This document shows, piece after piece, positions 2,328 through 50,191 of a stretch of 64,000 bases of DNA. The DNA lies in the NCBI RefSeq assembly GCF_014874095.1, contig NZ_JADBEB010000001.1, forward strand, positions 1,302,001-1,366,000, in the 5' to 3' direction. Both the position numbers and the translations under genes were made by a program. The DNA is from Plantactinospora soyae (GTDB taxonomy: Bacteria > Actinomycetota > Actinomycetes > Mycobacteriales > Micromonosporaceae). Positions within the stretch are counted from its first letter, which is position 1; the number at the start of each line of letters is the position of its first letter. The notes under the pieces were generated by a model that was not told the origin of the DNA, made no database searches, and saw nothing but the letters and a program-made list of their open reading frames with translations.

Positions 2328-5309
<2,982 letters not shown>

Positions 5310-7678: not shown

Positions 7679-7885
7679 CGTGGTCCACCTTCCCGTTGGT
7701 CCGGCCCGGCAGCCGGTCGATTGCGTCACCCGCACGGCGCCGCGGCGACCGCGGACCCGGAGTGCCGTACCAGCCGAGGCGCGGCTGTCGCAGTGGTCAA
7801 CAAGCGCCGTCGACGCGCTGCCCTGGCCCGTGCTACGACGACGTCGCAGCTGATGCAGTCCGGCGCTGACTGTGCGTGCTCTCGC

Positions 7886-12668: not shown

Positions 12669-12922
12669 CCGTCGATCCCTCGCAGCCGCGAGACCACACC
12701 CCACAGGTTGCCCGCGGTGGCGAAGGTCTCGAGGTTCATCGAACTGTCCGGGAACTCGATTTCGTAGAGCGTTTCGAGATCGACCAGCAACCCGACCATT
12801 CCCAGCGAATCGAGACCCAGATCCACGAGGCTCGCGTCCGCCTCGAGCGGCGAGTCCCCGAGAAGAAGTTTCACGTGCTTACGTAGCTCCGACTCGAATT
12901 CCGGATCCCAGGCAAGCGACAC
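12665..12922 (-). CDS. Free-standing acyl carrier protein
   Basis: An 85-aa carrier protein with the phosphopantetheine site LGLDSLGMVG; the modified serine is S39. The GTG start at 12922 follows a GGGGTGA site. It is the first gene of a minus-strand set (ACP, ligase, decarboxylase) overlapping by 4 bp at each junction, so the trio is made in fixed ratio. Its DSL core is of ACP type rather than the GGxS type of the NRPS carriers here, which fits a dedicated carrier for a modified amino acid or acyl group. Confidence 0.92.
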   Translation of the reverse strand: MSLAWDPEFESELRKHVKLLLGDSPLEADASLVDLGLDSLGMVGLLVDLETLYEIEFPDSSMNLETFATAGNLWGVVSRLRGIDG

Positions 12923-19600: not shown

Positions 19601-19845
19601 TCGGCCCGGGTCAGCACCACCTGCTGCGGGGTGCTGATATCGGCGGAGACAAATGCCGTGCGCAGCACGGGGTGCCGGTTGACGGCAGCTTGCCACGCCT
19701 GGAAGAACCGGGACACCGACAGCTCGCCCTGGATCCCAAAGGTGGTCAACTCCACATAAAGGCCCTGCTCAGCCGCGGTCAGCGTATGAAACAGCATGCC
19801 TTCCTGGGTGGGTGAAAGGGGATAGATGTCTTCAACGTTCGTCAC
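16693..19845 (-). CDS. NRPS module C-A-PCP (last module by gene order)
   Basis: 1050 aa. The C domain spans ~5-440, opening YPLSPTQEGMLFH, with an intact HHLLLDG at ~140-146. The A domain is at ~465-960, with YVIYTSGSTGRPKG at ~613 and the LAGKTD lysine near its end. The PCP is at ~975-1045 (ALGGDSLRAL). My manual reading of the specificity pocket is D-T-A-Q-Y-C-M-V-Y-K, which matches no code I know, so the substrate is open. The GTG at 19845 has an AGAGGGGAAG site and overlaps the PKS stop in a GTGA; the open frame extends upstream only as a shadow of the PKS. There is no thioesterase or reductase domain after the PCP, although gene order makes this the final module. Release must be in trans or by an unrecognised route. 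Confidence 0.93.
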   Translation of the reverse strand: MTNVEDIYPLSPTQEGMLFHTLTAAEQGLYVELTTFGIQGELSVSRFFQAWQAAVNRHPVLRTAFVSADISTPQQVVLTRADLPVEHHDLRGLPEADRAAVVEATLAQLRSQPFDLTRPPLMRLAVLQLPDGYLIAWAYHHLLLDGWSSALLLAEVTAALAGDGSIVTDRPAPPPYREYISWLHRRDGSADQAFWTAYLEGYREPASLTLPGFGPGGRPSSRYHTVVTELPAEVIGGLRALSVAASTTLGSLMEAALAGTLGRYCDRDDVVVGVTTAGRPAAIPRSNEMVGLFITTIPVRVRLTHAEPAHAWLTHHAAGRHRVLEHQHTPLTDIQRWAGVEPGSALFEAVLAFENYPDPATLGEDTSGSRGRRPLVTDVRYETRTNYPITLVVRLGSVMRLQLVVDAAKFGDGEPEALLLHLETALRRLAADPGQAVSAVFDLPSVARSRLLDDWNGSLVDRTEPRASLATLIDDAVAARPDHPAVVDERTVLTYRALNDRADALAAGLTRAGVGPGDRVGICLGRRADLVTALLGIARAGAAFVPLDPTHPAERSRYILDDADPSLVLIDTTGASATAGWTGPTLDLSDEAWLDHPESPGGVPPRRVEGALAYVIYTSGSTGRPKGVSIGRLALANLVDSLARRHPGLGPDDRFLALTTLTFDTSLAELLVPLAVGATVHVGGSALGLSGRELDRYIRAHGITALQATPSRYRILIESGWQGETRPRLYSCGEAFPPDLAAPLAARGASVWNMYGPTETTVYSSVEEIRADTTRVSVGRPISNTVLYVLDRAGRPVPHGCVGELCIGAAGVAEGYWRRPELTNERFVADPFSTGGRMYRTGDHARYLPDGRVEVLGRIDRQLKLNGYRIEPGEIESVLLRHPAVRGAAVTVRGDRLVAYTVAADPAAPPTPDELRAALRRLLPTYMIPDSFVALDELPMTLAGKTDLLALPDPPARTAVSGPGAAPAADQDDVPLAQITKLFQEVLEVPEVGPDDDFFALGGDSLRALRLASRLETELDREIGADELFNYRTVREVASLVARLRSQEAR

Positions 19846-22800
19846 TGTTCTTCCCCTCTGGCGTCGAACAGGGCCAGCACCCGGGCCACGTCGGACGGGT
19901 CGAGGTCCGTGTCCGGAAAATCTCCGCGGGCCGCGGCCCGGGCCTCGGTGTCTTCCCCGTCCGGCACGACCGCATCGGGCCGCGGGAGATCGGCTGCCGG
20001 CGGCCGGCTGGCACGCACGTGCGCGGCAAGCCGTGCGACCGTCGGCGCCGCGAATATGTCGCCCGGCGAGACGGCGATCCCGATCTTCTGCAGTTCCGCG
20101 GCGATCTGCACAATCAGCAGCGAGTCGCCGCCAAGCTCGAAGATGCTGTCGTCCGGCCCCGCCTGGGGTACGCCCAGCAGCCTGACCCACACCTGCGCGA
20201 TGGCCCGCTCGAGTGCGCCGGCATCGGACACATCGATGCCCGGCCGGTCGACGGCAGCCACGCCGGACACCTCCGCGCCGGACAGGTCGGCGCCGGTGTT
20301 CTCGGCGGCCGACAGCCGCGGGGTGACCAGGATGTGCGGTAGGTGCCGATTGGCCAGGACGATGTCGAAAGCCCGACGGCCCTCGGCCGTACCGATCCCT
20401 TCGCGGCCTGCCGGATGGTCCCGCCCGGGTACCGGAACCCGGCCGTGCGATGGTGCCGGCCGCAGCACGAACCCCTTGACCTCGACAGCCACCAGCCCGT
20501 CCGGGTCGGTGAAAGTGACGTCGGCGACCACGCTGTCGCCGGTGTCCTCGTGCCGCACCACCCGGGCGTATCCGGCCGCGGGCAGGTCCCGGTACACGAC
20601 GATCCGGCGGTACGCGGCCGGCAGGTAGTCCGCCTGCCCGGCGGCGGCCGCGCCCGTCGCCACGTCGAACAGCGCCGGGTGCAGCGGATGCGCTTCGAGA
20701 TCGTCGCCGAATTCGTTGGGCAGTTCGAGCCGGAGCAACGCCTCCCGCTCGCCCTGCCACCGCCCGGTCAGGCATCTCCACCGGGGACCGGTCTGCACCG
20801 CGTCCACGCCGGACCCACCCGTCCCGGCGTCCTCGACCGATCGGAGAGATGGCGACAGGGCGGCGACATCCACGGCCGGCTCGACGGTCTCCTCGCCGCG
20901 ATACGGGCCGATGCGGCCACTCGCGGCCACCCGTTCACCGGCGATCTCCCAGTCGTACGCGCCGTCGGCGGCAGGCCTCAACCGCAGCACGATCGCCGGA
21001 TCCTCGGTGTCGGAAACCGGCAGCGGACCGGCGAACACGGCGTCCAGGTACACCGGCGCCGGGCCGTGGAGCAGCCGGTGGCCGGCCAGCGCCAGCTCCA
21101 GCAGGGCGGTGCCGGGCAGCACGGACTCGTCCCGCAGCCGGTGTTCGCCGGCCAGCCAGCGAGTGTGCCGGCCCCACCGCACCAGCAGGTCGAAGCCGCC
21201 CCCGGCGGTCGGCTGGCGGCTGGCGAACAGCGGGTGTTCCAGCCGCGCTCCCTGCGCGCCGTGGCGCACCGCCATGCCGGTCTGCGACCAACGGTCCCAG
21301 CCGATGGCCACCGTACGCTCGCCCAGGTGGGCGAAGCTGTCGAGGAACGCGTTCGCGGCGGTGTACGCGGCCTGCCCGACCGCGCCGGTGGTCGCGAGCA
21401 CCGAGGAGCACAACACCACGTAGTCCGGCTGATCGGCCGCTGTCAGAAGGTGGAGCAGCAGCGTACCGGTCACCTTCGGGGCGAGGACCCGGGCCAGCTG
21501 ATCGTCGGTGCGCCGGGCGATCACCACGCCGTCGGGTACCCCGGCGGCGTGCACCACCCCGGCGATGCGCCCGAAGCGGGCACGGGCCACGTCGAGCGCG
21601 GCGGACAACTCCGCGGCATCGGTGACGTCGGCCTGCACCAGGCAGACGACGGTGCCGGCGGCGGCGAACCGCGCAAGCCTGGAGGCCAGCTCGGGCGGGC
21701 AGGACGCCGGGACGGCGCCCGGTGGGCGGACGGTGTGCCACGCCGGCCCGTCCGGCACCGGACCCCGGGTGAGCAGCAGCAGCGTCCGGCCCGGTTGCGT
21801 GGCGAGCTGCTCGGCGAGGGCGAGGCCCATCCCGCCCAGTCCACCGGTGATCACGTGCACGCCGCCGGCCGGGATCACCGGCACCGTCCCGGCCGCGTCC
21901 CCGGCCCCGGTCTGCCCGGTAGCCAGGGAGGGCCGGCTCGCACGGGGCACCAGGCGACGGCGACCCCGCACGGCCACCAGCGGGTCGGCGCCGCCACGCA
22001 GCTCGGCCAGCAACGCCTCGGCCGCCCGGGCGAGCGTGCGCGGAGTCCGATCGGCGAGGTCGAGGTCGACCGCCGCGAGCCGTAGGTTCGGCGACTCGAG
22101 AGGCACCACCCGGACCGCTCCCAGTACCGTGGCGGCCTGCGGGGTACGCGGTGGTTGCCCACCGATGCCATGCGCGGACTCGGTGGCCACCACGGTGCGC
22201 ACCGGCCTGCCGGGCAGGACCTCGGCGATGGCGCGGTGCAGCGACAGCAGGCCACCGACCGCGTTCAGTGCCTCACCGGCGACCTCGGCCACGGCCGGAT
22301 CCCCTGCCACGGGTAGCGAGGCGAAGCCGGCGGCTCGGCAGTCGATCACTGCGTCCGGCGTCTCCCCCCGCGCGACGAAGCGGGCGAGCAATACCGCGCA
22401 CCATTGCGAGTCCATCACCGGGGCGTGCGGCTCGACGGTCAGCACGCTGACATCGAGCCGGCGCAACAGGTCGACCACGTGGGGTCCCAGCGCAGGCCGG
22501 TCGGACCGCCCGGTGTCCAGGAGCACCAGCACGCGCTCGGGCAAGGCACCCGGACCCGCCGGTGGGGTGGGTGCCCAGTCGACCACATGAAGCCAGCCCG
22601 GTACGGCGTCGCCGGATGAGTACGCCGGCACCACGGGTGCCCGGCCCGGACGTGGTTCCCGGGTCGGGCGGAACCAGTGCCGGGTCGGCTCGAAGGGGTA
22701 CGTGGGCAGCGAGACCCGTCGCCGGCCGGACCGGTCGCCAAGTGCCGTCCACTCCACCTCGACACCCCGCTGCCACAGGCGGGCGAGGCTGGAGTACCGC

Positions 22801-25253
22801 GCGGGCGGGCCATCCGCGGTCGGCGGGTCGAGTGAGGCCAGCAGCGACAGGTCCGACCGGCCACCACGAGCCCTCCCGGGCAGCGACCGGGCCGGCCCGA
22901 TCTCGACGAGGGCGTCCGCTTCGATCGCGGCCAGCGCGTCCGAATACCGGACGGTCCGCCGCAGCTGCGCCGCCCAGTAGCTGGGCGAGGCGGCCTCGGC
23001 GTCGGAGAGCAGCCGACCGGTGACCGTGGAGATCACGGGGACGGTGGCCGGTCCGGTGGCGACGCCCGCAACCAGCTCCGCGAACCGGTCCGTGATGAGG
23101 TCGACGTGCCGGGAGTGGAAGGCGTGCCGGGTAGCCAGTCGTCGGGTCGCCACGCCGCGCCCGGCGAGTTGCTCGGCCAGCCCGTGAACGTCGGCCGGAG
23201 CGCCGGCCAGCACGCACCGGTCGGGGGCGTTGACCGCAGCGAGGTCGATCCCGTCCGACATCGCGCCGCTCGTGTCTAGAAACTCGCGCACGGCCGCCTC
23301 GGACAGGGGTACCGCCAGCATCGCCCCGGGCGGCAAGGTCGCGGTGAGCCGGCCCCGCTCGGCCACCAGGCGGGCCGCGTCGGGCAGGGTGAAGATCCCG
23401 GCCAGGCAGGCGGCGGCGAACTCGCCGATGCTGTGCCCCACCAGTGCGACCGGGCGCACCCCCAGGGCTGTCCACCAGCAGGCGAGTGCGTATTCCAGGG
23501 TGAACAGTGCGGGCTGCGCCTGCTCGGTGCGGTCGAAGCCGCCCGCGTGTCCGGGGTCGAGGAGCAGTTTGCGCAGCGGAGCGTCGGTCCACGGGCGTAG
23601 CGCCTCGAGGCACCGTTCGACGGCATCGCGGAACAACGGTTCGTCCTGATAGAGGTCCGCGGCCAGCCCGGGATGCCCGTGGCCCTGCCCGGCGAAGGAG
23701 AAGGCCACCTCTGGCGGGGCGTCGCCTCGAATCGCTGTGGCATCCCACCGGCCGTCGCCGGCCCGAACCAGGACGGGCCGCCGCCAGGGGTGGCTGCGCC
23801 GGCCCACCTGGAGCGTGAATGCCACGTCGCCGAGTGCCGGGCTCTTCGGCGCCTGCAGCGCGCCACGCATCCTGTCGGTCAGCCGGTCGAGTGCCGCCGG
23901 TGTCCGTGCCGACAGCGGCAACACCTGCCAGCCGGAGCCGCCAGAGCGCCGGCCCTCGGGCGGCGCCGACGGCGAATCACCCAGGACTACATGGGCATTC
24001 GTACCACCCACGCCGAAGGCGCTGACTCCGGCCACCCGGGTGCCGTCCGGTCCCGGCCACTCGGTCGCCTCGGTCAGCACCCGGAACGACGCCTCGCCGA
24101 CGGTCGGCCGGGGCTGCCGGACGCCGGGCATGCCCACGAGCGTGCGGTGTTGGAGACACAAGACGGTTTTGATCAGTCCGGCCATGCCGGCGCAGGTGTC
24201 AAGATGACCGACATTGGACTTGACCGAACCGAGCACCCGCATCGGATTCGGGGCATCCGCGAAGACCTGGCGCAGTGCGGCCAATTCGATCTCGTCGCCG
24301 AGCGGGGTGGCCGTGCCGTGCGCCTCCAGGTACGACACCTGTGCCGGACCCACACCCGCCACCGACTGCGCCGCGGCGATCACCCTGGCCTGTCCGGCGG
24401 CCGACGGTGCGGTGAACCCGACCTTCCGGCCGCCGTCGTTGTTGATCGCCGAGCCGAGCACCACCGCACGTACCGTGTCGCCGTCGGCCAGCGCGTCGGC
24501 CAGACGTTTCAGGACCACGGCCCCGACGCCGCTGCCGAACACGGTGCCGCTGGCGGCCACGTCGAACGGCCGGCAGTGGCCGTCCGGGGAGAGGATGCCG
24601 CCGTCGGAGTAGGTATAGCCGAGCCCCTGGAACACCCCGGCCGACACGGCCCCCGCCAGAGCGAGCTCACACTCCCCGCTGAGCACCGCCTCCGCGGCCA
24701 GGTGCAGCGCGACCAACGCCGACGAACACGCCGACTGCACGCTCATCGCCGGGCCGGTCAACCCCAGCAGGTACGCGGCCCGAGTGGCGAGATAGTCCTT
24801 GTCACTTGACGCCAGCCACTGCACGTCGCCCCGGTCGGTCAGCTCGTCCGCGTGTGGCAGCACCTCGTGAACGAGGTACGAGTTGAACCCCGCTGCCGCG
24901 TAGACACCCACGTCGCCGCGGAGCCGTCCGGGCACCTGCCCCGCGTCTTCCAGGGCGGCCACCGCGCATTCCAGGAACACCCGGTGCTGCGGATCCATCA
25001 GATGGGCGTCGCGCGGTGGGATGCCGAAGTAGGCCGCGTCGAAGCGGTCCAAGCCGTCGAGCACCCCACCGGCCGGGACGAACCGCTGGTCGTCCAGCCG
25101 CTCCGCGGGTACCCCGAGAGCCGCCAACTCCTCACGGGTCCGGACCGTGATACCTTCCCGGCCCGCCACCAGGTTCCGCCAGAACTCGTCCGCGTCGGCT
25201 GCTCCGGGGAACCGGCACGCGAGCCCGATGATGGCGACCGTGTCGTCATTCAT
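19842..25253 (-). CDS. Type I PKS module KS-AT-KR-DH-ACP
   Basis: 1803 aa. The KS spans 1-425, with Cys176 (QSACSSA), His312 (EAHGTAT) and His350 (SNVGHLD). The AT spans ~515-830, with the active serine in VGHSIGEF (S608) and the malonyl-CoA signature HAFH (710-713). The KR is next (ITGGLGGMG; SSVLATTG...YTAAN, with Ser, Tyr and Asn kept). A dehydratase-like domain then follows the KR instead of preceding it, with EHRLRDESVLPG at the HxxxGxxxxP position (Gly replaced by Asp) and HPALFD carrying the Asp. The ACP/PCP (LGGDSLLIVQ) is near the C-terminus. It extends the thiazolyl intermediate by two carbons; the outcome is a double bond if the DH works, otherwise a hydroxyl. There is no ER. The ATG overlaps the upstream NRPS stop (TGATG). 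Confidence 0.93.
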   Translation of the reverse strand: MNDDTVAIIGLACRFPGAADADEFWRNLVAGREGITVRTREELAALGVPAERLDDQRFVPAGGVLDGLDRFDAAYFGIPPRDAHLMDPQHRVFLECAVAALEDAGQVPGRLRGDVGVYAAAGFNSYLVHEVLPHADELTDRGDVQWLASSDKDYLATRAAYLLGLTGPAMSVQSACSSALVALHLAAEAVLSGECELALAGAVSAGVFQGLGYTYSDGGILSPDGHCRPFDVAASGTVFGSGVGAVVLKRLADALADGDTVRAVVLGSAINNDGGRKVGFTAPSAAGQARVIAAAQSVAGVGPAQVSYLEAHGTATPLGDEIELAALRQVFADAPNPMRVLGSVKSNVGHLDTCAGMAGLIKTVLCLQHRTLVGMPGVRQPRPTVGEASFRVLTEATEWPGPDGTRVAGVSAFGVGGTNAHVVLGDSPSAPPEGRRSGGSGWQVLPLSARTPAALDRLTDRMRGALQAPKSPALGDVAFTLQVGRRSHPWRRPVLVRAGDGRWDATAIRGDAPPEVAFSFAGQGHGHPGLAADLYQDEPLFRDAVERCLEALRPWTDAPLRKLLLDPGHAGGFDRTEQAQPALFTLEYALACWWTALGVRPVALVGHSIGEFAAACLAGIFTLPDAARLVAERGRLTATLPPGAMLAVPLSEAAVREFLDTSGAMSDGIDLAAVNAPDRCVLAGAPADVHGLAEQLAGRGVATRRLATRHAFHSRHVDLITDRFAELVAGVATGPATVPVISTVTGRLLSDAEAASPSYWAAQLRRTVRYSDALAAIEADALVEIGPARSLPGRARGGRSDLSLLASLDPPTADGPPARYSSLARLWQRGVEVEWTALGDRSGRRRVSLPTYPFEPTRHWFRPTREPRPGRAPVVPAYSSGDAVPGWLHVVDWAPTPPAGPGALPERVLVLLDTGRSDRPALGPHVVDLLRRLDVSVLTVEPHAPVMDSQWCAVLLARFVARGETPDAVIDCRAAGFASLPVAGDPAVAEVAGEALNAVGGLLSLHRAIAEVLPGRPVRTVVATESAHGIGGQPPRTPQAATVLGAVRVVPLESPNLRLAAVDLDLADRTPRTLARAAEALLAELRGGADPLVAVRGRRRLVPRASRPSLATGQTGAGDAAGTVPVIPAGGVHVITGGLGGMGLALAEQLATQPGRTLLLLTRGPVPDGPAWHTVRPPGAVPASCPPELASRLARFAAAGTVVCLVQADVTDAAELSAALDVARARFGRIAGVVHAAGVPDGVVIARRTDDQLARVLAPKVTGTLLLHLLTAADQPDYVVLCSSVLATTGAVGQAAYTAANAFLDSFAHLGERTVAIGWDRWSQTGMAVRHGAQGARLEHPLFASRQPTAGGGFDLLVRWGRHTRWLAGEHRLRDESVLPGTALLELALAGHRLLHGPAPVYLDAVFAGPLPVSDTEDPAIVLRLRPAADGAYDWEIAGERVAASGRIGPYRGEETVEPAVDVAALSPSLRSVEDAGTGGSGVDAVQTGPRWRCLTGRWQGEREALLRLELPNEFGDDLEAHPLHPALFDVATGAAAAGQADYLPAAYRRIVVYRDLPAAGYARVVRHEDTGDSVVADVTFTDPDGLVAVEVKGFVLRPAPSHGRVPVPGRDHPAGREGIGTAEGRRAFDIVLANRHLPHILVTPRLSAAENTGADLSGAEVSGVAAVDRPGIDVSDAGALERAIAQVWVRLLGVPQAGPDDSIFELGGDSLLIVQIAAELQKIGIAVSPGDIFAAPTVARLAAHVRASRPPAADLPRPDAVVPDGEDTEARAAARGDFPDTDLDPSDVARVLALFDARGEEQ

Positions 25254-28200
25254 CAGGCGTCCGAATCCCCGCGGGCCGCGCGCCGCCGTTGACGATGTGC
25301 CGCGCGCCGGTCAGGCTGCGGATCGCCCGTGACACCTGTGGACGTCGCCGGTGCCGCCGCGGTGGCCGGGGACGCGTCGAGCAACTCGGCCAGGTGCCGG
25401 ATGGTCGGCTGGGCGAACATCTCCACCATCGGCAGTTCCCGGCCGAATTCCTCGGCGATGCGCCGCTGTGCCCGCACCAGATGAATCGAGTTCGCGCCGG
25501 ACTCGAAGAGGTTGGCGTCCACGTCGATGGGAAGTCCGTCCATCACCTCCCGCCACAACGCCGCCAGCCGATCTATCGTGGGTCGTCGCGGCTCGCCGGC
25601 CGCGGTGTAAGTCCCGGATACCGGCACTGCGGCGGGTGGTGAGGCGGCCGGCCCGGGCGACTGCGCACGGAGCGCTGCCCGGTCGACCTTGCCGTTGGCC
25701 GACAGCGGCAACGCCTCGATCTCCCGGATCTGTTGCGGCACGAGGTAGGCCGGCAGCCTTTCGGCAAGCTCGGCCTGCAAGCGCTCGGGCAATGACCGCC
25801 GGGCGGACGCGGGTTGCGCCGGTCGTCCGGCCAGCAGCGTGTACAGCACGGTCTGGTTCTCCTCCAGCCCAAACGCCTCCCGCAGCGGGGGTGCGTAGAC
25901 GTCACCGATCGGGCACAACGCCACGTCCACCTCGGCCGACCGCTGTCTCAGCAGCTGTGCCATGGCGCCAGCCTCCAGCAGACAGAACCGCTCGCTCAGC
26001 GCCCCGTAGACCGGCTCGATCACGGTATTGCGGGCGATCAGGAAGACACCGAACCCGCAGGCTGCCACCAGCGCCCGGTTGGCCTCGCTGAACAGCCTCG
26101 GATCGAGGGGGCCACGATCGGTGCCATCGGCGCCGACCGCGACCAGGGAGGCGTCGGACGGGTCCAGGTAGTACGTTCCCGCGGCAAGCCCGCTGACGCC
26201 CCCCGGTGCTATCGCGACATACGTCTGTACCGGGTACAACCCGCCCGCCGAGCCGTAGCCGTAGCGCGGCACCCCGTCCTGATCCTGTCGGGTCAGCACC
26301 GTCAGCAGCGCCGCAAGCCCGGTGGCGGCCACCGGACCCGCTCCGAATGCGACGGCGGTGCTCCCGCGGGGCGCCGCGCCGGCCGGGTGGCCGGCGTCCA
26401 CGGACAGCGACGTCCGTGCCGCCGAAGACAGGTCGGTACGTCGGCCCGGCTGGCGCAGCCGCAGGTCCAGGGCGCGGAGCCGGTCGCCGTCGACGGCCGG
26501 GCCGCCGGACGCGCGATCGGGGACCACGTACGCGACCAGACGGGCCGCCGGTCCGGTGCCCTCGACCACCGCCGCCGCCTCCCGTACCCCTGCGGCCCGG
26601 CTCAGGGCCCCCTCGACCTCGCCGAGCTCGATACGCATTCCGCGCACCTTGACCTGGGAGTCCTCGCGGCCGAGAAACTCCAGGTTGCCGTCGGGCAGCA
26701 GCCGGGCGAGATCGCCGGTGCGGTAGAGGCGCTCGCCGGAAGCCGGATGTACCGGAAAGGCGAGCTCGGTGAGTTCCGGCGCGTTGCGGTATTCCATGGC
26801 CAGGCCGACCCCGGCGATGTACAACTCCCCCGGCACCCACCAGGGACGGCGGTGGAACTCCGCGTTCAGCACGACCATCCGCTGATTGCGCATTGGCCGC
26901 CCGTACGGGATGCTCGGCCGCTCCGGATCGACGTGCTCGATGGGATGCAGCACCGACCAGATCGACGCCTCGGTGGCGCCGCCCAGGCTGATCACCGCGG
27001 CCTTCGGGGCCGCCGACCGGATCGTGTCCGGCATCGTCACCGGGATCCAGTCACCGCTGAGCAACACCAGCCGCAGCCGGTCCAGCCGGGTCGCCGGGTT
27101 GCCACGGCCGTACGCCAGCAGCATTTCCATGAGCGCCGGCACCGAGTTCCACACCGTGACGTCGTGCTCGTCGATCAGTCGTGACCAGGCCGCCGGATCG
27201 CGCTCCTCACCCTGCCCCGCGAGCACGAGGGTGGCACCGGCGGCGAGGGTGCCGAACACGTCCCAGACGGAGAGGTCGAACCCGAGAGCCGACAGACCGA
27301 AGACCCGATCGTCGGGACCGAGCCCGAATCGACCGTCGATGTCCGTCACCGTGTTGAGCGCGCCCCGGTGATCGATCAACACCCCCTTGGGCTCGCCGGT
27401 GGAGCCGGAGGTGTAAATGACGTACGCGGGATCGCCGGGGGCGGTCGCCACCGGCTGCGACGGGGGCTCGTCGGCTGTCTTGAGGGCGTCGGCGAATCGC
27501 ACCACCGCCAGCCCGTCCGGTACCCGGGATTCGGGGTCGGTACCGGGCGGCGCCACCACCGCCATGGCCCCGGAGTGTCGCAACGACCGGGCCAGCCGGG
27601 GCGCCGGGAGATCGGTGTCCAGCGGGAGATACACGGCGCCGGCCCGCAGCACGCCGATCACGGCGGCCACCTGCTCCCAGCCGCGGTTGGTCAGCACGCC
27701 GACGACGTCGCCGGGGCGCACCCCGGCCCGCGCGACCGCGTGGGCCACCCGTGCCGAGGCGTCGGCGAGCTCGCCGTAGTTGACATCGCCGGTTGCGGAG
27801 ACGACCGCGAGGTGTCCGGGGGTACGCGCCGCCTGCGCCAGGAACGGCTCGTGCAGCAACCCGTCGGGAATCGGCCCGGCGGTGTCGTTGAGCGCGTCGA
27901 ACGCGGTGGCGTGCGCGGGTGGCAGCAGTTCCCGGCTGGTTTCCCGCCAGGCCGCTTCGTCGGCGGCCAGTTCCTCGAGCAGCCGCACGTACGCGCCGAA
28001 CATGTCGTCCAGCAGCCCGTCAGGGAACAGGGCATCGACGCTGTCCCAGGTCAGCCGGAGCCGTCCGCCGTCCTCGGCGATCTGATGGTCCAGCCACACC
28101 TGTGGGGTCTGCGTGATGGTGTGCACCACGCGCGCGTTCAACTGGTCGAGGATCTCCTCGGCGGCACTCCCGCCGGCGCCGGGCGCGCCCAGTTCGCTCG

Positions 28201-31200
28201 TGAAAACGACCGGCATGGCGGCGAGCGTGACGCCGCGTCGCCGCGCCAGCTCGCCGGCCACCCACACTCCGCTGACCAGCCGGTGCTCCAGGTCCTCCCA
28301 CAGCTGCCGACCGACCGCGTGGGCGCGGTCGAGGAAGCTGCCCGCGGTCGCCGAGGCGATCTCCAGAAGCGTCAGCGCGGTGAAGTCGCCCACCAGCTCG
28401 GGCAGGTCGGGGTGGTCGCCGTCGCGGTTGAACAGGGTGAGGTTGATGGTGAAACGGTCCCGGGCCGACCAGGTTCCCAGCACGGTGGCGTACGCGGTGA
28501 GTGCCAGCACCGACGGCGTGATCTGGGCGGCCGCGGCCCGATCCTGGAGCGCCGCCCAGGTCTTCCGCGACAGGTACGCCTCGCGGCGGCGGAACCGGGT
28601 GTGGTCGAGATCCTCGGCGCGGCGGGCCAGCGGGAGTGCCGGCGCCGACGGCAACGTGTCCAGCCGGTCGCGCCAGTACGCGAGGTCGCCCTCGTATCCG
28701 GGCCCGGCGCGGCGAGTCTGGTCGGCGAGGACATAGTCGCGGAACGAGAGGGCGAGCGGGCGCCCCTCCCGCCGGCCCTGGTAAACGGCCAGCAGTTCGT
28801 GCAGCAGTTGCCGCACACTCCCGCCGTCGGCGATGAGGGTGTCCACGCTCAGGTGCAGGCGCGTCCGGATCGGGTCGAGGCGGCTGGCCCGCAACTCGAA
28901 CAGCGGCCACCGGTCGGCCGGCAGGACCTGATGCGACATCCGCTCCCGCGATGCGGCCAGCCGTGCATCCCGCTCGTCGGCCGGCAGGTCGGACAGGTCA
29001 TCGACGGCCACCTGGTAGTCGGGAGTCTCCGGCAGGATCCGCTGCCGGCCCTCGTCGTCGACGACCAGGCGCAGAGCGTCGTGCCGGCGGACGAGTTTCT
29101 GCCAGGCCGCCGACAGCCGGTCCGGGTCGAGGTTCGGCCCTTCGAGTTCCAGGTACAGGTGACAGGACACGTCACCGCCGACGGTGCCGCTGCGCCCGAT
29201 CCAGTAGGCCCGCTGCACATCGGTGAGTGGAAAGGGGTCGTGGCGGTGCGCCGGGTCCGGTCGCAGGATCATGTCGTCGTGGTGGTCACCGGCCGCGGTG
29301 GAGCGCCCCGCGTCGACCGCGGCCGCGAGTGCGGCCACCGTCGGTGTGCTCAACAGGATCCGTAGCGGCACCTGCACCCCGAACTCTCGCCGAATCGCTG
29401 TGACGACCTGGGTGGCCAGCAGCGAGTGGCCACCGAGCAGGAAGAAGTCATCGGCGGTACCGACCCGGTTGACACGCAGAACCTCGCGCCAGATGGCGCA
29501 GACCCGCTCCTCGGTGGCCGTCGCCGGTGGCACGTACCCGACGTCCGCAGCCGCGGACTCCGATACCGGGAGCGCGGACCGGTCGACCTTGCCGTTGGCG
29601 GTGACCGGCAGCGCATCGAGCACGACGAACCTGGACGGAATCATGTAGCCGGGCAGCTGAGCGGCAAGCCCGTCGCGCAGCTCCGCCGGCGTCGGCGTTC
29701 TCCCGGACGGCTCCGCGACCAGATAGGCGGCCAGCCCGGCCCGCTCGGTGCCCAGCCCGTACGGGGTGACCACGCATTGCGCCACACCGGGCAGTCCGGC
29801 AAGGGCCGCTTCCACCTCCCCGGTTTCGATGCGGAAGCCCCGGATCTTCACCTGGTGGTCGTCGCGGGACAGGTATTCCACCCGGCCGTCGGCACGGGTC
29901 CGAACCACGTCCCCGGTCCGGTAGATCGTCTCGGCCGGATGACTCGAATCGGCGACGAACCGTTCACGGGTGACTTCCGGCCGGCCGAGGTAGCCGGCGC
30001 TCACCCCGGCGCCGCCGATGAGGAGCTCGCCGGGGACCCCGACGGGGACCCGCCGCCCGTACGGGTCGACCACCCGCAGCGTCGTACCGGCGATCGGCCT
30101 GCCGATGGTGACCGGCGTGGCGGCCGGGTCCACGACGTCGGTGGTCGACCACACCGTGGTTTCGGTCGGGCCGTACATGTTGTGGAGTGACCCGCGCAGG
30201 TGCGGGGCGAGCCGGCCGACCAGGTCGGCGTCCAGCGGCTCTCCGCCGAGCAGCAGCTGGCGCAGGTCGCCGAGTGCGCCGGGCTCCCGTTCGGCGAGCA
30301 GGGCGCGGGCCAGTGAGGGGGTGCACTGCAGGTGCGTGACGCTGTGTCGGCGGATCAGTTCGGTCAGCTCCACCGGCGGCGCCACCGTGGGCGCCGCGGA
30401 CGCGGCGGTCACCGCGGCCGCGTGCAGGGCCGCCAACCGCGGCAGTCCGGCGAGGGCGGCGTCGGCCGGCACCCCGAAGTCGACCAGGCAGGCGATCTCG
30501 TCGACGCCCGCCTGTGCGAGCCGCTGGACCAGGGGCAGCCGGTCCTCGGCGGTGCCGATCAGCGACGCGTCCCGCAGGTAGCGGTCACATGCGTGGTCGA
30601 GCAACGCCTCCTCGTCCTCGGGCGTGAAGTCGGCCGCTCGTACGTCCACTCCGAGCCGGCGAGCCGTGGATTCGATCAGCCCGACCGAGGACCGCAGATA
30701 CTGCCGGAACGGCTGCCAGGCCACCGAGCGGACATCCGCTCCATCGGCTCCGATGAAGGTGTGCACCATGAGCGTCACGTGTCCGGTGCCCGGGTGGCCT
30801 GCGTCCTGCCAGGCCCTCCGGTAGATGTCGATGCGCTCGGCGAGTTCCTCGACGGTCTGACCGAGCAGGTGGGTGAGAAGGCGGGCGCCGATCTGCCCGG
30901 CCCGGCGACAGGTCTCCGGATTGCCGGACGAGGTCAGCCAGTACGGCAGCTCCGCCTGCACCGGCCGGGGCAGCACGCCCACCAGCACCTCTTCGCCGTC
31001 CGGGCCGGGAAACGGCAGCTTCTCGCCGCGCCACAGCCGTCGTACCTGGTCGATGCTCTCGGCTGTCCTGCGCTGACGGTCGTGGTAGGCGTCGGGGGCG
31101 AGGACGAAATCGTTGGCATGCCAGCCGGAGGCGAACGACAGGCCGACCCGGCCGCCGGAGAGGTTGTCGACCACCGCCCAGTCCTCGGCCACGCGGGCCG

Positions 31201-33685
31201 GATGGTGCAGCGGGGCGACCACGCTGCCCGCGCGGATGCCGACCCGCCGGGTCGCCTGAGCCACCGCGGCGGCCAGCACCGCCGGTGCGGGAAACGGGCC
31301 GCCGAACGCATGGAAATGCCGTTCCGGTAGCCACACCGCGCTGAAGCCGGCCTCGTCGGCGACTCGCGCGCCTTCCATGAGCAGCCGGTACCGGTCGGGG
31401 CCGGGGCTGCCTTCGGAAGCGTCGCTGGCGAAGTAGAACAAACTGAACTCGGGGGCCCGCACGGCAGCCGGCTCGGCGGTCGGCGCCGGCTCTCGGAGGG
31501 TATCCGGGGCGATCACCACGCGGTGACCACGGCTGAGCGTCCACAGCAGCTCGAGGACGGAGATGTCGAACGAGACGCTGGTGACCGCGAGCCAGGTGAC
31601 GGGTTCCTCGTCGCGGGCCACGAGGTCCATGGCCGCCAGGAATGCGGTGAGGTTGCGCCGCCGGACCACCACGCCCTTGGGCTGGCCGGTGGAGCCCGAG
31701 GTGTAGATGACGTACGCGGCCGAGTCCGGATCGACGGCCGCGTCGGCATCGGTGGTGCCCACAGCGGCCAGGTCACGGTCGAGGTCCACGACCCGGGCCA
31801 GCGCGGGTATCCGGTCCCTGGTCGGCGCGTGTACCACCACCGCGGCCGGTCGGGCGTCGCCGACCAGGTACGCCAGTCGCGACGGCGGGTAGTCGGAATC
31901 GATCGGGAGGTAGGCCGCGCCGCAGCGCAGGATCGCCAGCATCGTGGCCGGCAGGTCGGCGTCGCGGCGCAAGCAGATTCCCACCCGGTCGCCCGGGCCC
32001 ACCCCCGCCGCGCGCAGCGTCGCGAGCACCCTTTCGCTGCGTGCCGCCAGCTCGCGGTAGGTCAGTGTGGCACGGCCGGGGGTGACCACGGCCGGCGCGT
32101 CCGGACGCTCGGCCACCACCCGGGCGAACGCGGCGACGATGTCCTCCGCGGTGTCCGGCAGCGGGCCGCCGTCCTCGACCGGGGCGAGCGCGGCCGTCTC
32201 GGCCTCGCAGAGCACCAACAGGTCGGACAGCCGGCGGCCCGAGTCGGCGGTGCCGTCGCGCAACACCCGCACGAACGCGTCGAGCATCGCCCGCACGGTG
32301 CCCTCGTCGAACAGGTCGCGACTGTACTCGCACACCCCGGCGGTCCGATCGCCGTCGAGGGCCAGTTCCAGGCTCAGATCCAGCCGGCACAGTCCGTTGT
32401 CGAGGTCCACCGGCTCGGTCGACAGGCCGGGCAGGTCGAGGGTTCCGGCAGGCACGTTGCGGTAGCCGAACTGCACCTGGTAGATCGGGGCATGGCTGGT
32501 GTCGCGGTCCGGCCTCAGCCGCTGCACCAGCCGCTCGAACGGGACCGTGGCGTGCGCGAAGGCATCCAGTGCGGTGGTTCGCACCCGGTCCAGCAGCTCC
32601 GCGAACGTGGGGTCGCCGGTGAGGTTCGTGCGCAGCGGCAGGCTGTTGATGAACATTCCGGCCACGGATTCGACCTCCGGCCGGTCCCGGCCGGCCGTGG
32701 GCACCCCCACCACGACATCCTGTTGACCCGAGTGTCGCATCAGGACCGCTTGCCAGGCCGCGAGCGTCACCATGAACGGAGTGGCCCGCTGGTCGCGGGC
32801 GAGCGCGGCGACCGCGTCGGTGAGGTCGGCGTCGAGCGTCAACCGCACCCGGGCACCACGGTGACTGGGCACGGCCGGCCGAAGTCGGTCGGTGGCCAGT
32901 GCGAGGAGCGCCGGGGCGCCGGCCATCTGCCGGGTCCAGTATTCGAGGTCGGCATCGAGTGCCTCGTCCGTAAGGGTGCGCCGCTGCCAGGCGGCCCAGT
33001 CCGCGTACTGCACCGCCAGGGGACCGAGCACGGTGCCGCCGTCGCGCGCGGCCCGATAGCGGGCCGCAAGCTCGCCCATCATGACCGTACGCGACCAGGC
33101 GTCACCCACCAGATGATGGTTGACCACCACCAGGAGAGCGTTCCGGTCGTCCGAACGGATCAGCAGTGCCCGGAACAGCGGGCCGTGCTCGAGATCGAAC
33201 GCGCTGGCAGCCTCCCGCTCGGCCAGTTCCCGAGCGGCCTCCTCCGGTAGGTCGATCACGCGCAGAACCGGCTCGGTACGCGGGAGCACCCGCAGCCGCG
33301 GGGTGCCGTCGGCAGGGTCGACAACACTGCGCAGTGCCTGCTGCCGGTCGACCAACCCGTCGAACGCGGTCTCCAGCGCAGCCACGTCGATCGGTCCGGA
33401 CAACCGCAGCGCCACGTACTCGTTGAACGTCGCCGCCCCCGGGTACAGCTGCTCGAGGAACCACAGCCGTTCCTGACCGAACGACAGCGGCGGCTCGGCA
33501 CCGCCCTCACCCGGACGCGGGCCGTCCGGGTGAGATCCGTCAGATTGCCGGTCGCCGGAGGGGCGCAGCGGCCCCGCCGGTATCCGGGCGGCGAACTGGG
33601 CCCGCTGCTGCGGAGTGAGCTTGGCCAGTCGGTTCCGCTGGCCCTCCAGGCCGGTACCGGCTGGACGGTCCGTGGGACTAGTCAT
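25253..33685 (-). CDS. Two-module NRPS: C-A(Gly)[monooxygenase]-PCP-Cy-A(Cys)[oxidase]-PCP
   Basis: 2810 aa. The C domain is at ~65-480 (HHLVGDAW at 190). The first A domain starts ~510. Between its A4 and A5 motifs a luciferase-like FMN monooxygenase (MupA/Atu3671 type) is inserted at ~744-1090 (FSLFYFASD, VWLPERHFHAFGG, VAPLHHPARVAEDWAVVDNL, SFASGWHANDF). Pocket D-I-L-Q-L-G-M-V-W-K reads as glycine. PCP Ser1421. A heterocyclisation domain follows, with DTLIAD at 1615-1620. The second A domain, pocket D-L-W-N-L-S-L-I-W-K, reads as cysteine and carries a McbC-like FMN oxidase (~2400-2620) before its A10 lysine (SANGKVD, ~2662). PCP Ser2733. The predicted output is an alpha-oxidised glycyl unit joined to a thiazole. 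MtaG of myxothiazol is the precedent for a Gly A domain with this insertion. The start at 33685 has a GGAG site and overlaps the PKS gene by 8 bp. The C-terminal tail is Arg-rich. Confidence 0.94.
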   Translation of the reverse strand: MTSPTDRPAGTGLEGQRNRLAKLTPQQRAQFAARIPAGPLRPSGDRQSDGSHPDGPRPGEGGAEPPLSFGQERLWFLEQLYPGAATFNEYVALRLSGPIDVAALETAFDGLVDRQQALRSVVDPADGTPRLRVLPRTEPVLRVIDLPEEAARELAEREAASAFDLEHGPLFRALLIRSDDRNALLVVVNHHLVGDAWSRTVMMGELAARYRAARDGGTVLGPLAVQYADWAAWQRRTLTDEALDADLEYWTRQMAGAPALLALATDRLRPAVPSHRGARVRLTLDADLTDAVAALARDQRATPFMVTLAAWQAVLMRHSGQQDVVVGVPTAGRDRPEVESVAGMFINSLPLRTNLTGDPTFAELLDRVRTTALDAFAHATVPFERLVQRLRPDRDTSHAPIYQVQFGYRNVPAGTLDLPGLSTEPVDLDNGLCRLDLSLELALDGDRTAGVCEYSRDLFDEGTVRAMLDAFVRVLRDGTADSGRRLSDLLVLCEAETAALAPVEDGGPLPDTAEDIVAAFARVVAERPDAPAVVTPGRATLTYRELAARSERVLATLRAAGVGPGDRVGICLRRDADLPATMLAILRCGAAYLPIDSDYPPSRLAYLVGDARPAAVVVHAPTRDRIPALARVVDLDRDLAAVGTTDADAAVDPDSAAYVIYTSGSTGQPKGVVVRRRNLTAFLAAMDLVARDEEPVTWLAVTSVSFDISVLELLWTLSRGHRVVIAPDTLREPAPTAEPAAVRAPEFSLFYFASDASEGSPGPDRYRLLMEGARVADEAGFSAVWLPERHFHAFGGPFPAPAVLAAAVAQATRRVGIRAGSVVAPLHHPARVAEDWAVVDNLSGGRVGLSFASGWHANDFVLAPDAYHDRQRRTAESIDQVRRLWRGEKLPFPGPDGEEVLVGVLPRPVQAELPYWLTSSGNPETCRRAGQIGARLLTHLLGQTVEELAERIDIYRRAWQDAGHPGTGHVTLMVHTFIGADGADVRSVAWQPFRQYLRSSVGLIESTARRLGVDVRAADFTPEDEEALLDHACDRYLRDASLIGTAEDRLPLVQRLAQAGVDEIACLVDFGVPADAALAGLPRLAALHAAAVTAASAAPTVAPPVELTELIRRHSVTHLQCTPSLARALLAEREPGALGDLRQLLLGGEPLDADLVGRLAPHLRGSLHNMYGPTETTVWSTTDVVDPAATPVTIGRPIAGTTLRVVDPYGRRVPVGVPGELLIGGAGVSAGYLGRPEVTRERFVADSSHPAETIYRTGDVVRTRADGRVEYLSRDDHQVKIRGFRIETGEVEAALAGLPGVAQCVVTPYGLGTERAGLAAYLVAEPSGRTPTPAELRDGLAAQLPGYMIPSRFVVLDALPVTANGKVDRSALPVSESAAADVGYVPPATATEERVCAIWREVLRVNRVGTADDFFLLGGHSLLATQVVTAIRREFGVQVPLRILLSTPTVAALAAAVDAGRSTAAGDHHDDMILRPDPAHRHDPFPLTDVQRAYWIGRSGTVGGDVSCHLYLELEGPNLDPDRLSAAWQKLVRRHDALRLVVDDEGRQRILPETPDYQVAVDDLSDLPADERDARLAASRERMSHQVLPADRWPLFELRASRLDPIRTRLHLSVDTLIADGGSVRQLLHELLAVYQGRREGRPLALSFRDYVLADQTRRAGPGYEGDLAYWRDRLDTLPSAPALPLARRAEDLDHTRFRRREAYLSRKTWAALQDRAAAAQITPSVLALTAYATVLGTWSARDRFTINLTLFNRDGDHPDLPELVGDFTALTLLEIASATAGSFLDRAHAVGRQLWEDLEHRLVSGVWVAGELARRRGVTLAAMPVVFTSELGAPGAGGSAAEEILDQLNARVVHTITQTPQVWLDHQIAEDGGRLRLTWDSVDALFPDGLLDDMFGAYVRLLEELAADEAAWRETSRELLPPAHATAFDALNDTAGPIPDGLLHEPFLAQAARTPGHLAVVSATGDVNYGELADASARVAHAVARAGVRPGDVVGVLTNRGWEQVAAVIGVLRAGAVYLPLDTDLPAPRLARSLRHSGAMAVVAPPGTDPESRVPDGLAVVRFADALKTADEPPSQPVATAPGDPAYVIYTSGSTGEPKGVLIDHRGALNTVTDIDGRFGLGPDDRVFGLSALGFDLSVWDVFGTLAAGATLVLAGQGEERDPAAWSRLIDEHDVTVWNSVPALMEMLLAYGRGNPATRLDRLRLVLLSGDWIPVTMPDTIRSAAPKAAVISLGGATEASIWSVLHPIEHVDPERPSIPYGRPMRNQRMVVLNAEFHRRPWWVPGELYIAGVGLAMEYRNAPELTELAFPVHPASGERLYRTGDLARLLPDGNLEFLGREDSQVKVRGMRIELGEVEGALSRAAGVREAAAVVEGTGPAARLVAYVVPDRASGGPAVDGDRLRALDLRLRQPGRRTDLSSAARTSLSVDAGHPAGAAPRGSTAVAFGAGPVAATGLAALLTVLTRQDQDGVPRYGYGSAGGLYPVQTYVAIAPGGVSGLAAGTYYLDPSDASLVAVGADGTDRGPLDPRLFSEANRALVAACGFGVFLIARNTVIEPVYGALSERFCLLEAGAMAQLLRQRSAEVDVALCPIGDVYAPPLREAFGLEENQTVLYTLLAGRPAQPASARRSLPERLQAELAERLPAYLVPQQIREIEALPLSANGKVDRAALRAQSPGPAASPPAAVPVSGTYTAAGEPRRPTIDRLAALWREVMDGLPIDVDANLFESGANSIHLVRAQRRIAEEFGRELPMVEMFAQPTIRHLAELLDASPATAAAPATSTGVTGDPQPDRRAAHRQRRRAARGDSDA

Positions 33686-36600
33686 GACGCTCCAGTTCAG
33701 CGATGATCTGCTCTTCGATCTCGGCCGCCACGTCGGCGACCCGGCCACCGTCGAAGAAGACCCGGGCGGGTACATCGACGCGGAACTCCGACCGCAGCCG
33801 GGCGGCGATCTGGGCGGCCAGCAGAGAGTGCCCGCCGATTTCCAGGAAGCCGTCCTCGACGCCGACGCGTTCCAGCCCGAACATCTCGGCATACACCTCG
33901 GCCACCCGCGCCTCGGTGTCGGTACGCGGGGCCACGTACGGGTTGTCGAGATCGGGGCGGGGCAGGGCGACTGTCGGTGGCGCGGCCACGAGCGGTTGCT
34001 CGGTCAGTCGCAGCCGGCCGTCCTCGACGCGGGCGCCGGTCCGAACCACCAGCATCCGGCCCACTGGACCAGCCAGCGTGACCTGCAGCGCCCGCTCCGC
34101 CTGCCGCTGGGTGAGCGCACCGTCGAGCAGGTGCCTCTGCAGGTTCCGCAGGTCGGCGGGGACCTCCGCCGTACTCGCCATACCGACCTGCGACCACATG
34201 TCCCAGTCGATCGCGAACACCTGCCGTTCGTTGCCCGGGTCCACGGCGGCGGCCTCGGCGACCGCCGCCAGGTAGGCGTTCGCGGCGGCGTAGTCGGCCT
34301 GGCCGTAGGTGGGGATGACAGTCGCCAACGACGAGCAGAGCACCACCACACCGGCCTCGTCCGGGCGCAACGCGTCGAGCAGGTGGTTCAGACCACTCGT
34401 CTTGGGGGCCAGCACACTCGCCATCTCGGCGTCGGTGCGCAGTTCGATCGAGCCGCCACCGGGCAGGCCGGCCGCGTGCACGACGCCGTCGATGCGGCCG
34501 AACCGGGCACGGACCTCGTCCAGGGCACGCCACACTGCCGTCGGGTCGGTGATGTCGGCCTGGACGGTGATGACCTCGGCCCCGGTCTCCCTCAGTGTCC
34601 GCAGGGCCACGGCTGCCGGATCCGTATCGGCCGGGCCGGGCGCCGGACGGCGCTGCAGCAGCGCGATCCGGGCCCCGGCGGTGCGGGCGAGGTGGTGAGC
34701 CAGCGTGCGGCCGATCCCGCCAAGGCCGCCGGTGATCAGTACGGTGCCGCCGCGCGGCAACCGGGCCAACGCGGAACGGTCCCCCACCGACCGCGTCTGC
34801 TGCACCACCCGGGTCAGCATCTCGCCGTTCCGCAGCGCCACCAGCGGCACCTCGGCGCTGAGCGTGACACGCAGCACCGCGTCGACCGCGTCGGCGTCGA
34901 TGGCCCGGCCCACGGGAAGATCGACCTGAACCGGGTGGAGATTGCGGTATTCCTCCCCCAGCACCATGACCGGGCCGCTCAACAACGCCGCTGCCGGGTC
35001 CGGCCGGTCGGCCGGCGTCGCGGCGAACGCGCCGCCCGTCAGCACGCCCAGACGCACATCGTTGACCACGGTCTCCGCGGTCATGGCCCGGACCAGGCGG
35101 ATCAGCCCGAAGTACGCGTCCGACGGATCCGGCGCCGGGTCGGCGCCGGGCAGACCCCAGGCGTACACGATGGCCGTCGGTGTGCGGACGAGGCCACGGA
35201 GATCGGCCAGCAACTTGCTGTACTGCGCCGGGTCGGCCGGATCGATCTCGTACACCCCGCGACGGACCCGGCGGTACTCCTGTCCGGCCCGCACCGAGGT
35301 GACCACCTGGCCCAGCGAGGTGAGCCGGTCGACCACCGGCTGCGCACGCTCCGCCGAGTCCATGAAAACCAGCCAGGTGTGTCGGCGGGTGCCGACGACG
35401 TCCGGCGACCGCTCCGGCCGCGCCGCCTCGGGCTGCCACACCAGCCGGGCGTACACCGGCTCGTCCGGATCCTCCGCGGTGTCAGCCGGCCCGGCGATCG
35501 GTCCGGCGACCGCCTCGCCGGATGGCTCGATCCAGTGTCGGACATGCTCGAAGGGGTACTCCGGCAGCGGCGTCAGCCGGGCGCCGGCGGCGACCGGCTC
35601 CCACCGCACGCTGACGCCGTGGGTCCACAGCCCGGCCAGGCAACGCACGCTGCTGCGGGCCTCGTCCGGCTCCGGTTGCCGGTGCCGGCTGGGCAGCGGC
35701 GGCGGGGCCAGCCGCACCCGATCACGGTCCTGCCCGCCGACCGCGCGGACCAGATCGGTGAGCACGCTGCCGGGGCCGGACTCCACGAGGACCATACGGT
35801 CGTCGAGTTCGGCCGCCGTACGCAGCCCGTCGGCAAAGCGGACCGGCTCGCACAGATGTCGCGCCCAATACTCGGGACTGGTCGCCTGCTGCGCGGTGAG
35901 CCAGTCACCGGTCACATTCGACAGCATCGGAATGTTCGGCGCGCTGCGCGGTATCCCGGCGAACAACCGCGTCAGCTCGGCCGCGACCGGTTCGCAGCTC
36001 GGGCTGTGGAAGGCGCGGTCGACCGGCAGGCGCAGCGGGCGCAGGCCCCGTTCGGCAAGGTGTCCGGCCGCCCGGTCCAGATCGTCCAGGGCACCGGCGA
36101 GCACGGTGGCCGCCGCGCCGTTGACCGCGGCCACCGACAATCCGTGGACGGCGGCCACCTCCCGGGCCGCTTCCTCGCCGAGGCCGACCGCGAGCATCCC
36201 GCCGGTCGCCATCCGTTCCATGAGCCGGCCGCGGGTGGCCACCAGCGCGAGCGCGTCCGCCAGCCCGAAGACGCCGGACAGCAGCGCGGCCGAGTACTCG
36301 CCGAGGCTGTGCCCGAGCAGCGCGGCCGGACGGACCCCCCAGTGCCCGAGCAGCCGGGCGGTGGCGTAACTCAGAGCAACGACGGCGGGTTGCGCCACCG
36401 ACGTGCGTGCGCATTCCTCGGCCGAGCGCAGCAGGTCCGGCAGTGGACGGTCAAGGTGTTCCCGCAGGAGTGAGGTGCACTCGTCGAGGGCTTCCCGGAA
36501 AACCGGGTGCGCCTCGTACAGAGCCAGGCCGGTACCGGCGGTCAGGGTTCCCTGGCCGGGCAGGAGGAACACCACCGGTGGGTTGCCGTCCAGCGCCCGG

Positions 36601-50010: not shown

Positions 50011-50191
50011 GCGACGTCCCCCATGCCGTTCGCTTGCCGGCCACATAAACCATCAACGGGAGCACCCCGGGCAGGCATTGATCGAACCTTAACAGGGTCC
50101 CGGTAGTTCAACAAGAGTCTTTTGAATGCATGCAAATGCCTGACGAAGCTGGTACCCTCACTCCCGGTCGCGAGTGGAAGGGCCGTATACC
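50011..50191. promoter_or_regulatory. Divergent promoter region of the assembly-line operon and thioesterase
   Basis: A 181-bp intergenic region between the first gene of the minus-strand operon and the plus-strand thioesterase, so it should hold both promoters. It contains a near-palindrome at 50121-50136, TTTG-AATGCATG-CAAA (7 of 8 pairs match), about 111 bp from asnB and 55 bp from the thioesterase start, a suitable site for an operator. No regulator gene is in the cluster to pair with it. Confidence 0.5.

Follow-up and report, generated by a model that had tools for sequence, protein, structure and literature searches.

A glycine adenylation domain with an inserted monooxygenase, followed by a heterocyclising module with an altered oxidase domain, in Plantactinospora soyae

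Introduction

What becomes of a glycine that may be oxidised in the middle of an assembly line and is then passed straight to a heterocyclising module? The question is raised by a gene of the actinomycete Plantactinospora soyae, 25253..33685 on the reverse strand of the window (the whole 64,000-nucleotide stretch considered here, positions 1,302,001 to 1,366,000 of contig NZ_JADBEB010000001.1, to which coordinates refer unless another contig is named). The window is 71% GC, and the genome, 9.7 Mb, is a single contig. The gene encodes a nonribosomal peptide synthetase (NRPS) protein with the order C-A(Gly)[MOx]-PCP-Cy-A(Cys)[Ox]-PCP, i.e., condensation (C), adenylation (A), peptidyl carrier (PCP) and heterocyclisation (Cy) domains, with a monooxygenase (MOx) inserted in the first A domain and an oxidase-like domain (Ox) in the second. 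A first-pass annotation had seen in it two enzymes dependent on flavin mononucleotide (FMN). The MOx fits that description by its overall sequence, but the Ox, throughout its family, has lost the arginine that holds the flavin ring. Our best explanation as a whole, which we hold tentatively and at not quite even confidence, is that glycine would be hydroxylated on its carrier, that the oxidised chain would be passed on, and that the Ox would be something other than a standard FMN oxidase.

Monooxygenases within A domains for glycine have precedents. Those of the myxothiazol and melithiazol lines are described as lying between motifs a4 and a5 and as hydroxylating the glycyl alpha position, which leads to cleavage (PMC10204066); C-alpha hydroxylation followed by breakage of the N-C bond is also the account given in PMC11342130. 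By these published descriptions, MtaG and MelG share the a4-a5 flavin monooxygenase with the protein in the window, but they end their lines with a thioesterase (TE) and a C-terminal amide, whereas here a Cy-A-Ox-PCP module, a polyketide synthase (PKS) and another NRPS come next. Module 4 of SolF, in the solanimycin line, is closer in being internal, and its alpha-hydroxyglycine is proposed to remain in the chain; its flavin monooxygenase, however, is inserted between a8 and a9, and the account of it has serine-derived dehydroalanines next and mentions no heterocyclisation module (PMC10204066), whereas the window has an a4-a5 insertion followed by Cy. The crz-like clusters of Serratia and Pseudomonas also carry a MOx within a Gly A domain (their A2), but these are dipeptide lines, from which truncated or oxidised products are expected by the authors (PMC11342130). 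Finally, the MOx of PuwE, proposed to help build a carrier-bound 3-amino-2-hydroxy acyl chain, has a PKS module on one side and an NRPS module on the other (PMC4219810), rather than lying inside an A domain as in the window.

Architecture of the protein

The frame is open from 33892 down to 25253, with an ATG at 33685, as the first-pass annotation had placed it, and from that ATG the protein has 2810 amino acids. Its C domain (32186..33490; PF00668, residues 135-569) carries the motif HHLVGDAW. The Gly A domain comes in two parts, the first (31505..32137) with A3 YTSGSTGQPK and A4 FDISVLEL, the second (29570..30379) with LQCTPS, LLLGGEPL and NMYGPTETTVW, and the MOx (30425..31447) stands between them. 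PCP1 (29315..29509; PF00550, LGGHSLL) leads directly to the Cy domain (27938..29245), which has the Cy motif DxxxxDxxS as DTLIADGGS and matches the solved Cy domains of EpoB (5t7z) and bacillamide (5t3e). The second A domain is identified up to A8 (26567..27838) by Pfam and by its motifs, and these are of the Cys type: GGATEASIWS, and FDLSVWD in the window versus FDLSVYD in eight relatives. Then come the inserted Ox (25823..26470), the A9-A10 tail of the A domain (25643..25795) and PCP2 (25373..25576; Pfam, with the motif ESGANSIHL). All are on the reverse strand. The domain search found no TE in this protein, the Gly module being followed instead by Cy-A-Ox-PCP. The architecture, with both insertions, is real.

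The MOx, residues 816-1156 counted from 33892 (747-1087 from the ATG), belongs to the MupA/Atu3671 family of luciferase-like monooxygenases: it scores 481.5 bits against TIGR04020, for which the curated cut-off is 244.45, and 169 bits against PF00296. The nearest solved structure is the PuwE domain 6ket (6.2e-107, 361 bits over 343 residues). Insertion is between A4 (FDISVLEL) and A5 (NMYGPTE), and the host domain has the code D-I-L-Q-L-G-M-V-W, which we take to specify glycine. The code was read by eye from the alignment; a script had, for several rows, picked positions 278 and 299-301 wrongly. A pattern search found A4 and A5 motifs bracketing the MOx in 58 of 67 MOx rows, and in all 58 the code begins with D-I and ends with W. 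A luciferase-like monooxygenase between A4 and A5 of a Gly-type domain, as first annotated, is thus confirmed.

The oxidase domain and its lost arginine

The Ox is inserted after A8 (VKVRGMRIELGEVE) and before A9 (LPAYLVP) of the Cys A domain. This upholds the earlier identification of an oxidase-like domain in a Cys-type A domain after Cy, while its placing, formerly given as before A10, is refined to A8-A9, the site at which the Ox domains of EpoB and IndC are embedded (PMC8795117). Similarity to BmdC (1.9e-21 by sequence, 4.6e-37 with the family profile) places the domain in the SagB/McbC type. Against TIGR03605 it scores 57.6 bits, under the cut-off of 78.4, and three relatives score 66.4-72.3 bits; since two loci that retain the arginine considered below, L129 and L131, also fall under the cut-off, the low score is uninformative either way.

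The flavin of BmdC is contacted by Arg145, Arg146 and Ser147 (phosphate), by Arg149 (N1/O2), by Asn236 and Gly294, and, from the other protomer, by residues 182-186; Tyr260 is a conserved active-site residue (PMC8795117, where numbering, by our reading, is the chain index minus 2). When the family profile is aligned to BmdC, K-R-R-S-C-R-R-F falls on a-r-g-a-a-t-a-f, and the lost arginine is Arg149. In the window its place is taken by a valine, codon 2514 of the frame as counted from 33892 and not from the ATG (26351..26353). Equivalents of Tyr260, Asn236 and Gly294 are kept, as Tyr2629 (26006..26008), Asn2605 and Gly2663.

The loss extends to the entire family. Arg149 is matched by V, T, T, G, T, T, T, T, S and T in the ten family members (Arg in 0/10) and by Arg in 26/26 comparator Ox domains. 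The family set includes two members found by genome searches (L188 and L197); it omits L030 and L034, which stop before the Ox, and six loci dropped as the same places as others (L189, L194, L195, L196, L198 and L205, equal to L029, L035, L031, L032, L036 and L039, respectively). The comparators are 14 of 27 plasmid records, among them the stand-alone enzyme L145, and 12 matches of the window's Ox in three genome groups; one, L138, is counted for Arg149 but omitted from other columns where it has no letters, leaving 25. Seven further SagB-type loci were aligned, of which a strict pattern had matched only two, and Arg stands at this column in six, Pro in the seventh (L126). A local sequencing or frameshift artefact was considered and rejected, as the same loss recurs in ten members from separate genomes. 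Thus the view of this protein as carrying two FMN enzymes holds, by overall sequence, for the MOx and is not supported for the Ox as an ordinary FMN oxidase; alignment of the Ox shows the loss of a flavin-contacting residue, the kind of loss that the first-pass annotation had named as counting against its reading.

Tyr2629, Asn2605, Gly2663 and the motif SAGG are present in 10/10 members. Glu2603 and Arg2649 are likewise invariant (10/10 versus 0/25 comparators), as are Arg2621, Arg2651 and Asp2664 (10/10 versus 2/25 each), all in the Ox region. Mean identity of the Ox among the relatives is 69.5%, against 66.6% for the N-terminal part of the Gly A domain. From this conservation and from the invariance of the family-specific residues we conclude that the Ox is not simply decaying. 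In a tree of Ox domains, the family forms one clade on a long stem (support 98).

The explanation we favour would then run as follows. The Gly A domain would load glycine on PCP1, and the C domain would join it to a beta-hydroxyacyl chain from the upstream PKS module. By analogy with its homologues, the MOx would hydroxylate the PCP-bound chain at the alpha carbon of glycine, with reduced FMN probably coming from a separate reductase. In a protein lacking a TE, the oxidised chain would be retained, and the Cy domain would condense it with cysteine and cyclise, so that the next PKS would receive a thiazoline or thiazole bearing an alpha-hydroxyglycyl group or its dehydrated, trapped or tautomerised form. 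The Ox, without the arginine that holds the flavin ring, would probably not act as a standard FMN-bound oxidase. Three explanations remain for its altered form: flavin may be anchored anew, the domain may be a remnant, or it may have taken on a role that needs no flavin.

Several points weigh against this explanation. FMN may, to judge from the residues, still bind the family's Ox, given the four invariant features of the flavin side named above and an Arg at the Arg145 position in 7/10 members (21/26 comparators). Outside Arg149 the R-R-S-x-R loop varies in the comparators too, with DASSFREF-like forms in L139, L140, L147 and L190; the Arg146 position is mixed in family and comparators alike, and the Ser147 position is Ala in 8/10 family members. 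L126, which exceeds the curated SagB-family cut-off, also lacks the arginine. The window's own Ox is among the least conserved domains of the protein, 49-62% identical to those of seven relatives, where other domains longer than 60 columns range from 54 to 77%. Since the ten members form a single clade, the loss of Arg counts as one evolutionary event, not ten, and makes no statistical association. Finally, in enzymes of the MtaG type this hydroxylation is said to end in cleavage (PMC10204066).

Some of these same points speak for two working flavoenzymes, the MOx hydroxylating glycine with FMNH2 and the Ox oxidising the thiazoline with FMN held by a rebuilt anchor, to give an alpha-hydroxyglycyl-thiazole. 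The flavin-side residues, the frequent Arg at the Arg145 position and L126 all suit this view, and Arg2621, Arg2649 and Arg2651, invariant in the family, could serve such an anchor. Against it is position 2514 itself, where Arg is lost by every member and kept by every comparator, and we regard this alternative as possible but somewhat unlikely. L126 (A. coloradensis G157:C13; SagB-type, 110.7 bits against TIGR03605) may itself be another flavin-poor member of that type. At the other extreme, the Ox might be a dead structural remnant, the product retaining a thiazoline beside the (alpha-hydroxy)glycine. The lost Arg and the position of the Ox at the low end of conservation in the protein would be explained, but not the invariance of the catalytic Tyr and of several family-specific charged residues, nor the keeping of the stretch in all ten members, from Streptomyces-group genomes to Amycolatopsis. 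A remnant therefore seems quite unlikely.

In this family the two insertions travel together: MOx and Ox lie in the same open frame in 10/10 members. By comparison, in none of the genomes of the eight nearest Ox comparators, the only ones checked, did a MOx turn up close to the Ox. A search at 1e-40 found none in four of them, one on another contig in two, and one more than 5 Mb away in two.

Distribution and phylogeny of the monooxygenase

The first-pass annotation had contrasted the internal Gly-MOx pair with the chain-end pair of MtaG. That internal placing is unusual in itself is not borne out. Among 65 loci with a split Gly-A[MOx] domain, a TE comes right after the module in only two, one from the Pyxidicoccus order and the other from the actinomycete A. 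coloradensis; C follows in 6, a ketosynthase (KS) in 8 and Cy in 9, while 32 are in formyltransferase-containing proteins and 8 are ambiguous or incomplete. The survey is what the searches retrieved rather than a random sample: of one set of 80 MOx loci 45 entered it, the other 35 (L072-L089, L091 and L093-L108) having a MOx without flanking A halves. A match at 1e-70 is found in 64/145 genomes of the Pyxidicoccus order. The Gly-MOx insertion at A4-A5 thus marks a type of domain that is widespread and often not followed by a TE, and the pair as mainly a chain-end device is rejected. What does stand out is the step that follows. The earlier reading that the pair is internal and directly before a heterocyclising Cys module is confirmed, and among the surveyed loci that pairing occurs only in the window's family, to which all nine Cy-following loci belong (in L030 the Cy is in another frame).

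The formyltransferase loci (L040-L050, L052-L054, L056-L068, L070, L071, L092, L173 and L177) are of the form formyltransferase-A(Gly)[MOx]-PCP, many from Pseudomonadota and often beside a KS-AT-KR-DH-PCP-TE protein (AT, acyltransferase; KR, ketoreductase; DH, dehydratase), a small and widespread line. A second split Gly A domain of A. coloradensis, at L185 (G157:C18), has PCP-TE directly behind it, a terminal layout resembling that of MtaG, here in an actinomycete. On a plasmid of Streptomyces sp. KN37 (L133) is an NRPS-PKS cluster in which two proteins encoded near each other each contain a luciferase-like MOx domain, with a flavin reductase gene close by.

Cleavage of the MtaG type could nonetheless be programmed into the line: the carbinolamide would split, the upstream chain would leave as an amide, and glyoxylyl-PCP1 would prime a second chain on the Cy module, giving a 2-formyl-thiazole. 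The insertion site and the recruitment of glycine are as described for myxothiazol and melithiazol, and carbinolamides are able to split spontaneously; set against this, solanimycin B and spergualin are reported to contain alpha-hydroxyglycine in acyclic form (PMC10204066). In the window, moreover, no TE follows the Gly module, and in all six related clusters that we mapped the downstream Cy, PKS and NRPS modules accompany those upstream. This joint conservation of the two halves makes cleavage less likely, and we consider it quite improbable.

A tree of MOx domains, made with care from a reduced set (39 of 102 rows), puts the window's family in one clade of 11 rows (support 100/99). Within that clade falls a MOx of S. 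cellulosae, on a branch that excludes A. coloradensis (96/95), its place further inside the clade being weakly supported (82/59). The S. cellulosae locus (L132, plasmid CP109198.1) has genes for an asparagine synthase, a Trp halogenase, an Asp hydroxylase, a type III PKS and a lysine 2,3-aminomutase, and its Gly-MOx is followed by C-A; no Ox was found in this related cluster. As C-A in place of Cy-A-Ox nests within the family, the downstream module was probably swapped and the MOx retained. It was also with this cluster in mind, with its MOx and no Ox found, that the Ox as a flavin reductase supplying FMNH2 to the MOx was considered and set aside.

The S. cellulosae cluster invites a different view of the hydroxyglycine, as a latent N-acyliminium trapped intramolecularly, e.g., by the beta-hydroxyl from the KR module to give a 1,3-oxazinan-4-one, the MOx then serving ring formation and not thiazole chemistry. 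An Asp hydroxylase, KS-AT-KR and Gly-MOx occur together there as well, even though the next module is C-A. But no enzyme for the closure was identified and the chemistry is purely inferred, so trapping strikes us as decidedly improbable.

In thiamin biosynthesis, the thiazole owes its oxidation level to an oxidised glycine, dehydroglycine. Perhaps, then, it is the oxidation of glycine that pays for aromatisation here, the Ox being a former oxidase turned flavin-free dehydratase or isomerase. Loss of water from the hydroxyglycyl-thiazoline would form an N-acylimine in conjugation with the C=N of the ring, and tautomerisation, in which C4-H and C5-H of the ring move out, would then leave a thiazole that is aromatic, has an unmodified CH2-NH link and has undergone no net redox change at the ring. 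For such a task the Ox would keep its Tyr base along with Glu2603 and Arg2649, and with Arg2621, Arg2651 and Asp2664, found also in the few comparators counted above. The persistence of the MOx in S. cellulosae, despite replacement of the Cy-Ox module, argues that it is not tied to the thiazole alone, and we think this redox-neutral route unlikely.

The surrounding cluster

The gene stands within a line encoded on the reverse strand. Before it come an asparagine-synthase family amidotransferase (48133..50046), an Asp/Glu racemase family protein (PF01177, 47381..48145), an A-PCP protein (45636..47384), an NRPS of the order C-A-PCP-C-A-PCP (39076..45636), an Asp/Asn beta-hydroxylase (PF05118, 38290..39027) and the upstream PKS, KS-AT-KR-ACP (33678..38243; ACP, acyl carrier protein). 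After it come a PKS, KS-AT-KR-DH-ACP (19842..25253), and the last conserved NRPS, C-A-PCP (16693..19845). In the downstream PKS, KR precedes DH in the order given by Pfam, and relatives show the same order. The genes from asparagine synthase to last NRPS follow one another in the same order in 6/6 mapped related clusters (Streptomyces sp. MJM8645, S. hygroscopicus NBRC 3401, S. rimosus, S. cellostaticus, S. caniscabiei and Amycolatopsis coloradensis), and the motifs of the A domains are closely similar across these six. In the nine nearest named loci, the best segment of the MOx region is 60-72% identical to the window. None of the papers listed by a literature search of open-licence PMC texts was recognised as dealing with this cluster or with its product. 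Karnamicin also combines an asparagine synthase with a thiazole, but both its monooxygenases are FAD-dependent, and the word "glycine" does not occur in the main text of its report (PMC9838390).

Other genes lie beyond the conserved line, again on the reverse strand. An M28 peptidase (14267-16696) adjoins it, with a homologue on the opposite flank in four of the six mapped clusters, and is possibly a pro-drug or resistance peptidase. At 8042-12704 are a lone condensation domain, a pyridoxal phosphate-dependent decarboxylase (Orn/DAP/Arg type) and a stand-alone AMP-binding enzyme. The decarboxylase was not found in the six mapped stretches, with weaker homologues elsewhere in the genomes, and so the three genes may be a lineage-specific addition. 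A fused alpha-beta glycyl-tRNA synthetase (GlyRS) is encoded at 2328-5309, and the genome also has a dimeric GlyRS at G000:C1:9613381-9614724. PF02092 occurs in 0/6 same-genus genomes and in 13 of the 61 genomes searched, its own genome included. As a second copy near biosynthetic genes, the GlyRS at 2328-5309 is a candidate self-resistance copy. Adjoining it at 5457-7735 are a family 2 glycosyltransferase and a 3-dehydroquinate-synthase-like gene, possibly a separate small cluster.

Conclusions

For annotation, the lesson of the survey is that Gly-MOx modules of the A4-A5 type are common away from a TE, and chain cleavage is not to be assumed from their presence. For the family, the protein in the window joins two oxidative insertions in one assembly-line protein, and the second of them has lost the arginine, kept by 26/26 comparator Ox domains, in the one lineage, of those examined, that has a probable glycine-oxidising domain directly upstream. 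Does an oxidation level carried by glycine replace the oxidase in the formation of the thiazole, or does the Ox hold FMN in another way? The way in which the ring becomes aromatic is thereby made a testable question.

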